Of a DNA stretch of 64,000 nucleotides, positions 54,583 through 60,442 are shown in pieces. The DNA comes from Actinomycetota bacterium (GTDB lineage: Bacteria > Actinomycetota > Thermoleophilia > RBG-16-64-13). Numbering within the stretch: position 1 is the first letter of the stretch; every line of letters begins with the position of its first letter. The notes beneath the pieces are model-generated. The model was not told the DNA's origin. It did no database searches and saw only the letters and a list, made by a program, of their open reading frames with translations. The stretch spans positions 69,414 through 133,413 of the forward strand of contig JADQBG010000001.1 of the NCBI GenBank assembly GCA_016278725.1, written 5' to 3'. The position numbers and the translations under genes were made by a program.

Positions 54583-54886
54583 GATTTCCCCCTTTGCTCG
54601 GTGATTGGTGGCTCGTTGCAGGAATGCTTCACCGCATACTCGTATGCGGTTTCCCGGCGGTGGCCTGCCTGAATCATGGGGCTGCACCTGGAAGCCGCGC
54701 GGTTTGCCTTTATGCATAAGTCTGAGCAGTTTCAGCGCCATGGGGTCGCTAGAGTGCGGGCAGACCGGCCCCTTCAGCCCCTCGCTATGCATCCGAATAT
54801 ACGCACGAGGGTATAAGAAGCCACACAAAAGAGTCTATTTCGGGTGGATCTGCGACCCGGTGATGAGGCCCGGAGGAGTGAGAGCA
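54583..54886. promoter_or_regulatory. 304-bp divergent intergenic region with palindromes
   Basis: No gene is visible here. The region holds a perfect inverted repeat with 9-bp arms, ACCGCATAC at 54631-54639 and GTATGCGGT at 54642-54650 (2-nt spacer). It also has a TTATGCATAA palindrome at 54710-54719. The first is typical of an operator for a homodimeric regulator such as a TetR-type repressor. It lies between the divergent YbhB-type gene and the threonine-rich exported protein, so it may control either. Confidence 0.45.
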
Positions 54887-56230
54887 GTGAGAGGTTCCCC
54901 AATGAAATATGGCGTCGTCTGGGGAGGCTTCTTGCTGGCGTTGGCGGCGGCCTTGGTGCTTATCGCTCTGGTCTTTCGCCTCGATGCAGGGAACGGCGCG
55001 GAACCTGATCCTTTGGCTTTCGAGGGCCAAACCCAGCAGGATGTAACCGAGGATGGGACTGTTCCCAGTTCTTACCGCGAATCTGCGGGGGGCGATACCG
55101 CCGGGTCCACGACCACCATCCCAGCCCAGGAGGCGGCGGAAGAACCGGCGGCCCTGCAGAGCCCGCCTGAGAGTTCGCCCCAAAACCCGAGCCCGATAGT
55201 CGAAGCCGCCCAGGAACGCAAACCGGCAACCGTTCGCGGTCTTGTCAGCGACGCTAACGGGCACCCGGTGGGCGGCCTGGTGGTGGGCGTCTATGACCTA
55301 GAGGGATACCTCGCCGGCGACGCCCTGACCGCCGGCGACGGCAGGTACAGCGTGGGCGAACTCGACCCGGGACGCTACAAGGTCATCGTCTACGGGGACG
55401 GGCGCTTCCCGGATGAGTGGTACCAGGATGCGCAGCTGTTCGAGCGGGCAAGGGCGCTTAGCGTGGATTCCTCCGTCGCTTCGGCGGACTTCATCCTGGA
55501 CGGATTTCCTACCCCCACGACCATCGCGGTGGCCACAACTACGACCACAGTGGCGCCAACCACGACCACCGCGGCGCCGACTACCACGACGACCGCGCCC
55601 ATAACCACGACGACAGTGGCGCCCACCACGACGGTGCCGCCGGAAACCACTACAACCGTGGCGTCGACTACGACCAGCACCGCGCCTCCGGAAACCACCA
55701 CGACCACAGCGGCTCCTGTGACCACCACCACCGCGTCGACCACCACGACGACGCTGCAGCCTGCCGCCACAACGACAACCACGGTGCCGCCTCAAACTAC
55801 GACGACGGCAGTGGCGCCCACCGCCAGCACCACAACCACGACGATGGCGCCCACAACCACGACCATGGCGATGACTACCACCACGACCGTGGCGATGACT
55901 ACCACCACAGTGACGACGACGAGTACCCCGCCGGCTCAGCCGGTATTGCTCGGTCTCGAGGAGCTACCGCTCGCCGACGGAGTCCCGGTGCCTGAGTCCT
56001 GTGTGCTGCTGGACGCCCAGGGACGGATCCTGGAGGCTACCGAGGAGCAACTGGCCCTGCTCGAACCCGGACCAGAGTTAACCCAGGAAGCGCTCCTGCT
56101 GCTTAGCGCCACCGTGGACGACGAAGGTGTCCGGGTGCTCTGTCCTCTGCCCGATGGTGAGCAGTTCGCGGTCTATCGGCTTCCTGAAATGCCCGGGCAG
56201 GAACGGCTGGAGACGCTATTTCCGGGTTGA
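54887..56230 (+). CDS. Exported/anchored protein with carboxypeptidase-regulatory-like domain and threonine-rich stalk
   Basis: From GTG 54887 (GGAGGAG at 54872-54878) the protein has 447 aa. ATG 54902 is an alternative. One N-terminal helix (GVVWGGFLLALAAALVLIAL) anchors or exports the protein. A disordered Ser/Pro/Gln-rich part leads to a small beta domain (about residues 115-205: VRGLVSDANGHPVGGLVVGV, GRYSVGELDPGRYKVIV), like a Cna-B or carboxypeptidase regulatory domain. Then comes a stalk of Thr with Ala/Pro/Val (about 213-350). A compact acidic C-terminal domain follows. There is no sortase signal. It is probably a surface-exposed protein. Confidence 0.7.
   Translation: MRGSPMKYGVVWGGFLLALAAALVLIALVFRLDAGNGAEPDPLAFEGQTQQDVTEDGTVPSSYRESAGGDTAGSTTTIPAQEAAEEPAALQSPPESSPQNPSPIVEAAQERKPATVRGLVSDANGHPVGGLVVGVYDLEGYLAGDALTAGDGRYSVGELDPGRYKVIVYGDGRFPDEWYQDAQLFERARALSVDSSVASADFILDGFPTPTTIAVATTTTTVAPTTTTAAPTTTTTAPITTTTVAPTTTVPPETTTTVASTTTSTAPPETTTTTAAPVTTTTASTTTTTLQPAATTTTTVPPQTTTTAVAPTASTTTTTMAPTTTTMAMTTTTTVAMTTTTVTTTSTPPAQPVLLGLEELPLADGVPVPESCVLLDAQGRILEATEEQLALLEPGPELTQEALLLLSATVDDEGVRVLCPLPDGEQFAVYRLPEMPGQERLETLFPG
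55524..55927 (+). repeat. Low-complexity threonine-codon repeat
   Basis: About 400 bp of imperfect ACC/ACG/ACT codon repeats encode Thr-rich sequence with interspersed Ala, Pro, Val and Met. No fixed period is kept, so it evolves as a low-complexity stalk. It is not CRISPR: there are no distinct spacers and the reading frame is preserved throughout. Confidence 0.85.
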
Positions 56231-58149: not shown

Positions 58150-58653
58150 CTATCCGCCCCCGGGTTGCCCCGGATAGAGTTCCTCGATGCGTCTCTTCCG
58201 AAAGCCAAAAATCGCGATCAACTGCAGGGCGACCAGGGGCGCCGCCAGCAGTCCCAACGGTCCGAAGGGCAGACGGTAATCCACCCGGTCCTCCATCAGC
58301 AAGCCCTGAGGGTCTCCGCCCGACCGGCCGCCCGAGCCTTCTCCCCAGAGAGGGCGGAAGCTGTGCGTGTGCACCCACTCTGCGTAAGGGCCCCGCCGCT
58401 GGACGTCGACGAATCCCCAGGGAGGATCGATGCGGACTATCTCCGTGTGCCATCTGAGCGGCAGGCCGAAGAGACGCAGGCGATAGGTGATCCGGCTTCC
58501 CCGCACCAGCGGTGGTTCCGGCGCCGAAAGAATCTGAAAGCCCAGCCAGCTCGGGGTGAGCGCCGCGAGATTCTCGGCGGACTCGAAGAAGGGAAACACC
58601 TCCTGCGGCCGGCGCGGGATGAGCTGCGACCGATAGAGCCGGCGCCGAAACAT
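58150..58653 (-). CDS. SRPBCC-fold (polyketide cyclase/CYP-like) protein
   Basis: The protein has 167 aa. The N-terminal SQLIPRRPQEVFPFFESAEN, LTPSWLGFQIL and the ITYRLRLFGLPLRWHTEI segment are typical of the START/SRPBCC cell-division-inhibitor-like (COG4276) group. It should form a hydrophobic ligand cavity. DRVDYRLPFGPLGLLAAPLV near the C-terminus is also characteristic. ATG 58653 is used. It is probably cotranscribed with the molybdoenzyme. The ligand is unknown. Confidence 0.82.
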   Translation of the reverse strand: MFRRRLYRSQLIPRRPQEVFPFFESAENLAALTPSWLGFQILSAPEPPLVRGSRITYRLRLFGLPLRWHTEIVRIDPPWGFVDVQRRGPYAEWVHTHSFRPLWGEGSGGRSGGDPQGLLMEDRVDYRLPFGPLGLLAAPLVALQLIAIFGFRKRRIEELYPGQPGGG

Positions 58654-58698
58654 CGCTGGTAAGCCTTTCGCTCGCTCGGGTAGCCATCGAAAGCCCGG

Positions 58699-59439
58699 TC
58701 ATGCGGCGCCGCCGGCAGCCACCAGGCCGCGAAGCGTGCGTGCGTTCTTCACGGCGTAGCCGCCCGGGTCATTGTTGAAGTATACGAAAACGTCCCGGCC
58801 TTCGCTCCGCCAGTTCGCGATCGGTTCGACCCATGAGGCAAGATCGCGGTCGGGGTAATCCCCCTGATAGTCCTTGCCCGGACCGTGGAAGCGGACGTAG
58901 ACCAATCCGGAGGTGAGGAGCTGCGGCGCGGGGGCGTTCTCGCTGTCGTGCAGGACGAGGGCCACATCATGGCGTTCGAGCAGTTCGTAGACCTCAGACG
59001 CGTACCAACTGGCGTCGCGAAACTCGAGGGCGTAGTGGTGGGAGGTGGGGAGCAGTTCGAGGAAGGCCTCCAGACGTTCGCGGTTGACACGGAAGCGCGG
59101 GGGCAGCTGAAAGAGGATGGGCCCCAGCTTCTCCTCGAGCAGATCGGCCTTTTGCAGGAAGCGGTCGAGCGGCTCTTCCGGATCCAGCAGCCGCTTCATG
59201 TGAGTGAGAAAGCGGCTGGCCTTTACGGCGTAGAGGAAACCATCGGGTGCCTGCTCACGCCAACCTTCGACAACACCGTCTCCCGGAAGCCGGTAGAAGG
59301 TGTTGTTGACCTCCACCGTATCGAACTCCTTCTGATAGAAGTCGAGGCGCCGGCTCTTGGGAAGATCGGACGGGTAGAAGACGTCTTGCCAATGGTCGTA
59401 AGCCCAACCCGAGGTGCCGATGCGAAGGTCGCCCCCCAA
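58699..59439 (-). CDS. DUF72 (YecE-like) protein
   Basis: The protein has 246 aa. RIGTSGWAYDHWQDVFYPSD, EFDTVEVNNTFYRLP, LGPILFQLPPRF, ALEFRDASWYASEVYELL and VYVRFHGPGKDYQGDY are the ordered DUF72 blocks, a TIM-barrel family of uncertain function. The start is TTG 59439, 1 nt after the LapA-type stop, so translation is probably coupled. No other start lies before the conserved RIGTSGW. Confidence 0.88.
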   Translation of the reverse strand: MGGDLRIGTSGWAYDHWQDVFYPSDLPKSRRLDFYQKEFDTVEVNNTFYRLPGDGVVEGWREQAPDGFLYAVKASRFLTHMKRLLDPEEPLDRFLQKADLLEEKLGPILFQLPPRFRVNRERLEAFLELLPTSHHYALEFRDASWYASEVYELLERHDVALVLHDSENAPAPQLLTSGLVYVRFHGPGKDYQGDYPDRDLASWVEPIANWRSEGRDVFVYFNNDPGGYAVKNARTLRGLVAAGGAA

Positions 59440-59957: not shown

Positions 59958-59994
59958 CTAAAGCAGGATGAAATTGCGTTCAGGAGGTGCAGCC

Positions 59995-60177
59995 ATGTTC
60001 TGGTGGATCAGTGCGTTTGTCGTCTGGGCGATCTCGGCCGCCTGAATAATCGCCATTCTCGCGGAGGTCTTCCGCGGAAAATCGGCGGCCCTGAGCCCCA
60101 AGCTGCTGCCGGGTTACGGCTTTCACGGCGTAACCGCTATTTTGTCGCTGTGGCTGTTCATGAAGGCGCTTTCCTAA
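59995..60177 (+). CDS. Putative small membrane selenoprotein A (in-frame UGA at codon 17)
   Basis: ATG 59995 (AGGAGG at 59982-59987) to TAA 60175 gives 60 codons with one in-frame TGA at 60043-60045. The protein would have two helices: residues 3-25, containing the UGA (AISAA, U17, IIAILAEVF), and 43-59 (GFHGVTAILSLWLFMK). The linker is KSAALSPKLLPGY. The second gene of the pair has UGA at the equivalent place and the same FH[GA]VT motif. A 6-bp hairpin with loop GGUCU starts 20 nt after the UGA. The residue is therefore predicted to be selenocysteine, not stop or Trp. I recognise no known family. ATG 59968 is a weaker alternative start. Confidence 0.75.
60043..60087 (+). promoter_or_regulatory. 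Candidate SECIS element of membrane selenoprotein A
   Basis: The upper stem CGCGGA (60060-60065) / UCCGCG (60071-60076) closes the loop GGUCU. A lower stem pairs CGCC (60051-60054) with GGCG (60084-60087), and AUU with AAU inside it. The loop begins 20 nt after the UGA. With its closing A it reads AGGUCU, which as I recall is also the apical loop of the E. coli fdhF SECIS. No other stretch in the gene competes clearly. Confidence 0.75.
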
Positions 60178-60187
60178 GGAGGTTGTG

Positions 60188-60442
60188 ATGAGGGTTTTCG
60201 TGCGGATCAGCGGGTACGTGCTGCTGGCCATCGGCTTGGTCTGAATCGTGACCATCACGGGAGGGGTTCTCTCCCACGGTGAGACTTTCGATACGATGGG
60301 CGAGCTTTGGGGCGGCCTTGCCTTTCACGCCGTCACGACTTCGCTGGGTGCCTATTTGATTCAGCGCGGCAAGGCACCCAACAGGCAACGCGGAACCGAA
60401 GCGGCAGAAGCCGGCCTCAACCGGGCGCCGCTCGCGCAGTAG
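60188..60442 (+). CDS. Putative small membrane selenoprotein B (in-frame UGA at codon 19), paralogue of A
   Basis: ATG 60188 (AAGGAGG at 60176-60182) to TAG 60440 gives 84 codons with an in-frame TGA at 60242-60244. The first helix is ISGYVLLAIGLV, U19, IVTITGGVL. The second is LWGGLAFHAVTTSLGAYLIQ, followed by a basic, polar tail of 24 residues. Aligned with the upstream gene it shares the A-I-x-x-x-U-I-[IV]-x-I core and F-H-[AG]-V-T, with UGA-to-His distances of 28 and 27 residues. The pair thus looks like tandem paralogues. A hairpin starting 19 nt after the UGA fits a SECIS. The gap between genes is 10 nt. Confidence 0.75.
60242..60282 (+). promoter_or_regulatory. Candidate SECIS element of membrane selenoprotein B
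   Basis: The upper stem GGGAG (60259-60263) / CUCCC (60271-60275) closes the loop GGGUUCU. A lower stem pairs UCAC (60255-60258) with GUGA (60279-60282) across a 3-nt bulge. The loop starts 19 nt after the UGA. Loop sequence and spacing resemble the element in the adjacent gene. Confidence 0.7.

Follow-up and report, generated by a model that had tools for sequence, protein, structure and literature searches.

Two adjacent small membrane-protein genes with in-frame UGA codons probably read as selenocysteine in an Actinomycetota genome

Two adjacent short genes on this contig are each interrupted once by a TGA, which raises the question of whether these codons are read as selenocysteine (Sec) and, if so, what the resulting proteins might do. 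The window analysed here is the whole stretch of 64,000 nucleotides. Gene 1 (59995..60177, +) would encode a two-helix membrane selenoprotein of 60 residues (MFWWISAFVVWAISAAUIIAILAEVFRGKSAALSPKLLPGYGFHGVTAILSLWLFMKALS), with the in-frame UGA at codon 17 (Sec17; 60043..60045, +) and its ribosome-binding site region, AGGAGGTG, at 59982..59994 (+). Gene 2 (60188..60442, +) is a paralogue of 84 residues (MRVFVRISGYVLLAIGLVUIVTITGGVLSHGETFDTMGELWGGLAFHAVTTSLGAYLIQRGKAPNRQRGTEAAEAGLNRAPLAQ), with the UGA at codon 19 (Sec19; 60242..60244, +). The two are separated by a 10-nt gap (60178..60187, +) with the gene 2 ribosome-binding site GGAGGT, which overlaps the end of gene 1; this arrangement is conserved in a sister species of the same genus. 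Read through the UGA, both products are hydrophobic two-helix hairpins that share the motifs A-I-x-x-x-U-I-[IV]-x-I and F-H-[GA]-V-T. Re-reading of the sequence agreed with the sequence-only reading on the lengths, frames, UGA codons and good Shine-Dalgarno sites, on the motif around the UGA, and on the position of the His of F-H-[GA]-V-T, 27 and 28 residues past the U.

The same locus was found in the sister species (contig JAGXFV010000011.1, MAG LH_M23; genus g1), with both UGAs retained. Between the two species, gene 1 past the UGA showed 7 synonymous and 0 non-synonymous changes, and gene 2 showed 17 synonymous and 11 non-synonymous changes (dN/dS 0.18). For the remaining frames, most ratios exceeded 1, or the changes were few and nearly all non-synonymous. 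This pattern indicates that the sequence beyond the UGA is translated and selected, and the purifying selection bears out the earlier remark that the frame stays protein-like on both sides of the codon.

Homologues were then sought more widely. A single-protein search of 61 relatives and a profile search of genome contigs matched the sister species alone, a first profile run against 399 genomes of the class recovered the pair in genus g1 only, and viral contigs and plasmids gave no match. A pair profile searched against 396 genomes of the phylum added one further genome, G677, which belongs to another class; none of the 36 genomes searched from that class was another carrier. Weak profile matches (e.g. 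G340, G158) aligned poorly, lacked the pair and were taken as chance, and G719, a candidate with one TGA, was rejected. In G677 both genes stand in tandem, with UGAs at positions 17 and 19 as in the host genome. Its gene 1 product (MGWWIGSALALLVGVAUGLQLCAAVGRDGKSVLSFSIWPWFVFHGGFGAAALWMAMKAVG) has the same length as that of the host, and its gene 2 product reads MARALGILGWTLRAVALIUIVSVGLSVATAAEGYRTMLEIAPGIAFHAVTAVAGIQLVATSKRMRTGAVEPTTS. Six columns, U, F and H included, are invariant across the six proteins of the host, the sister species and G677. One interruption per frame could also arise from sequencing errors or from independent nonsense mutations in two genes undergoing decay; this explanation is refuted by the presence of both UGAs in two species whose genomes were assembled separately, and a further time in G677, and with dN/dS well below 1 past the UGA we regard its probability as negligible. 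The earlier argument that two independent nonsense mutations would be unlikely is thus upheld by the retained UGAs and by the recurrence of the tandem UGA pair.

A third lineage with the pair was found in genus g217 (G589, G706), where the first gene has Phe at the Sec column and the second gene, directly downstream, has an in-frame TGA at codon 19. Past this TGA, the second genes of the two genomes differed by 9 synonymous changes and 1 non-synonymous change, which again points to purifying selection. The four g217 proteins scored 18.1–21.7 bits against a profile built without them, compared with a maximum of 17.2 among 4669 background open frames, and among 2000 shuffles of each protein 0 reached that protein's score. 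A tree could not match the g217 partners to gene 1 or gene 2. Met1 and the His of helix 2 are the sole invariant residues across the ten proteins of the five genomes. Sec occurs in 8/10 proteins; no pair in the lineages found lacks it altogether, and the His is present in both partners. The Phe in one g217 partner, together with the invariant His, suggests that one Sec per pair can suffice. The pair is known from five genomes in three genera, among several hundred genomes of the phylum sampled in partly overlapping searches. The sequence-only reading had proposed looking for homologues with TGA or TGC at the UGA column: TGA was found (in the sister species, in another class and in one g217 partner), but TGC was not, and no homologue with Cys at this column appeared in profile searches across the sampled phylum genomes. 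Such Cys forms are the customary comparative evidence for a selenoprotein, though they are not indispensable, and their absence counts against the Sec reading. The counter-evidence it had named did not turn up, since no homologue terminates at the Sec codon and none has TGG there, and selB is present in the host, the sister species and G677.

The host genome has the full Sec set, with selA, selB, selD and tRNA-Sec; selA and selB are adjacent, and selD has an in-frame TGA of its own, as it does in the sister species. Elsewhere in this genome UGA is an ordinary stop. Within the family, selB was found in 14/18 genomes and the pair in genus g1 only, which means that Sec decoding extends beyond the genomes with the pair. 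As separate observations, SelD of the host and sister species (L072:1531, G000:C26; L073) is a UGA selenoprotein with a U-A-C-K-L motif and a hairpin in the same register as those of the pair, and there seem to be two selB genes in G677, a complete copy and another that is divided between contigs (L106; L107/L113; C116, C23, C94).

Downstream of each UGA we identified a SECIS-type hairpin, whose register was counted with the U of the UGA as nt 1, so that an apical G 21 nt past the UGA falls at nt 24. In gene 1 the hairpin is UCGCGGA[GGUCU]UCCGCGG (60059..60077, +) and in gene 2 GGGAGG[GGUUC]UCUCCC (60259..60275, +), both with the loop GG at nt 24–25. The same position of the loop GG was found in G677 gene 1 (CGCGGC[GGUCG]GCCGCG), in G677 gene 2 (GGCUGUC[GGUUGC]GACAGCC) and in host SelD, which served as an internal control (CCCCAA[GGAC]UUGGGG). 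The G589 and G706 hairpins have an AGUUC or AGUUU loop, with its G at nt 24, on a stem interrupted by one bulge. Host SelD and the eight UGA genes thus all share an apical G at nt 24. The published bSECIS model specifies a loop of 3–9 nt, a stem of 4–16 bp and a G at loop position 1 or 2, located 16–37 nt after the UGA with an MFE of at most -7.5 kcal/mol (PMC13188914). The hairpins of the pair fall within this definition; the gene 2 element reaches the energy limit when taken whole (-15.6), whereas its minimal hairpin alone gave -3.9 in one pairing. A hairpin of this kind with GGU at a similar position follows only 23 of the 1419 TGA triplets of the window. Shuffling of synonymous codons reproduced the register exactly in 4.8% of cases for gene 1, 3.1% for gene 2, 3.3% for G677 gene 1 and 0.2% for G677 gene 2. 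An Rfam scan returned no SECIS family and chance matches only. Since the folding z-scores are modest, it is the register, the loop and their recurrence, and not stability alone, that carry the case for SECIS elements.

The conserved TGA column, the full Sec machinery and the hairpins in one fixed register strongly support the earlier proposal of a coded selenocysteine at both UGAs. In principle the same codons could be read by a suppressor tRNA or through near-cognate insertion of Trp, so that peptides of 16 and 18 residues would be extended at a low, programmed level; a frame that continues past the UGA under selection would be expected then too, and the Phe at the Sec column of one g217 partner is likewise aromatic. 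We consider this very improbable, given that TGG occurs in no homologue, that the hairpin register equals that of host SelD and that the Sec machinery of the host is complete.

Selenocysteine decoding leaves the question of what such proteins would do in the membrane. Positive charges lie in the loop of the gene 1 protein and at the ends of the gene 2 protein, whose loop is acidic. This opposite K/R bias is clear in the host and sister species and weaker in G677, and under the positive-inside rule, applied to few charges, it suggests that the two proteins are inserted with opposite topologies. AlphaFold models gave two helices with low confidence. A rough depth estimate from the loop-side helix ends placed the Sec at 9–17 angstrom and the His at 6–11 angstrom, and therefore a putative Sec/His membrane site is geometrically possible. 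In the model we propose, a small operon made up of these two genes would specify paralogous helical hairpins of the inner membrane, both with a single selenocysteine close to the midpoint of helix 1. SelB with Sec-tRNA-Sec would read the UGA because the ribosome encounters a SECIS hairpin whose apical G follows 21 nt later. The two proteins would assemble as a heteromer, for which opposite topologies would favour an antiparallel heterodimer, and the helix-1 Sec and the invariant helix-2 His, at similar depth, would form an intramembrane redox or metal site, with a selenol peroxidase or reductase activity or an electron relay as examples. We hold the core of this proposal, an operon of paired membrane selenoproteins with SelB/SECIS decoding, to be highly probable. 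Its functional part, the heteromer with an intramembrane Sec/His site, perhaps applies in exactly that form, with a likelihood that we put a little short of even.

The tandem arrangement is kept in three lineages despite different neighbours. A stricter version, in which the pair is obligate, a bilayer-buried Sec and a His of the neighbouring helix form the redox or metal site, no Cys counterpart exists and Sec defines the family, is put forward tentatively, and we lean somewhat against it. The His, a cytochrome b-type trait present in the membrane part of all ten proteins, could instead be the centre of the site, with one membrane His per partner on a shared putative heme or metal that the Sec tunes or reduces, comparable to the heme held jointly by two small subunits in cytochrome b559. 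Besides Met1 it is the sole invariant residue of the ten proteins while Sec varies, and gene 2 gave a weak Sdh_cyt match (E 0.014, below cut-off). That match is at chance level, however, and the opposite predicted topologies would place the two His on opposite membrane sides, which makes a His-centred selenoprotein pair unlikely in our view.

The neighbouring genes differ between lineages but hint at redox. In the host genome a RibD_C-type reductase lies 31 nt downstream of the pair, followed by a nitroreductase, and a divergent LapA-domain protein is encoded upstream. In G589 and G706 an Fe-S protein with weak QueG/reductive-dehalogenase similarity is encoded directly upstream (L117:8611-9951; L118:8046-9410). 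None of the neighbours from the host or from g217 is present at the G677 locus. We also considered a small antiparallel transporter, SMR- or MerT-like, that would move a metal, a metalloid or a compound of selenium and use Sec as a ligand. SMR subunits have four helices, and the present proteins are smaller; the MerT and SMR models gave no match, and a metal-resistance gene is absent beside the pair. Tandem paralogous hairpins with opposite charge bias would nevertheless suit such a transporter, and a Sec-containing mercuric transport protein has been catalogued (PMC13188914). On balance we judge a transporter to be distinctly improbable, and the Sec/His heteromer remains our working model.

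Several other features of these loci were recorded. The g217 Fe-S protein is a possible functional partner of the pair, and the start of the G677 contig falls within a gene for formate dehydrogenase alpha, some 3 kb ahead of the pair (L094:44-1402). In the sister species the start of a DUF72-like gene is joined to an SRPBCC-like gene (L028:3543-4148 vs window 58150-59439), which looks like a deletion of about 0.7 kb or an assembly join. The protein encoded at positions 54605-56230 of the window has a long Thr-rich TTTT/APTTTT linker and is predicted to be secreted or located at the cell surface.

The sequence-only reading did not recognise the family, and our searches concur. Neither gene matched a Pfam or NCBIfam model at cut-off, a PDB sequence search gave no meaningful match, and nothing comparable to this small two-helix pair is named among the 119 prokaryotic selenoprotein families and subfamilies catalogued in 2026 (PMC13188914). 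By domain models and catalogue listing, the pair is a new family of predicted SelB-decoded selenoproteins, with an unusual combination of Sec within a membrane helix, paired tiny paralogues and no Cys counterpart among the homologues found. Gene callers would end both genes at the UGA, and methods based on Sec/Cys pairs, a reliance that the deep-Sep authors state as their own limit (PMC12013277), would miss the family. The pair therefore suggests that more small selenoproteins are hidden, and it raises the testable question of selenium chemistry inside the bilayer.

Thioredoxin-like folds, or other folds of the thiol-redox type, are found in most of the selenoproteins catalogued. The pair has no sequence relation to the catalogued proteins and, unlike them, would have its Sec in a transmembrane helix. 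With SelB/bSECIS selenoproteins such as host SelD and E. coli FdhF it shares the in-frame UGA, the hairpin just downstream and the apical G, but it differs from known members in having neither a UxxC/CxxU-type motif nor a Cys form among the homologues found. Cytochrome b559 (PsbE/PsbF) likewise consists of adjacent small membrane proteins with an invariant membrane His in each; its subunits have one helix each, share a heme and lack Sec, whereas a heme in the pair is only putative. Dual-topology and paired small membrane proteins, including SMR family pairs (PMC9574504, PMC4560821), are comparable as tandem small paralogues; the opposite charge bias expected of antiparallel heterodimers is clear here in the host and sister species and weaker in G677. 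SMR subunits are larger, and the present pair has no sequence match to SMR models and would contain Sec. As in the reviewed selenoprotein operons grdA-grdB, Tso and SAO, adjacent selenoprotein genes probably act jointly, but those operons mostly encode unrelated, larger proteins, whereas the pair described here consists of two tiny paralogues (PMC13188914).
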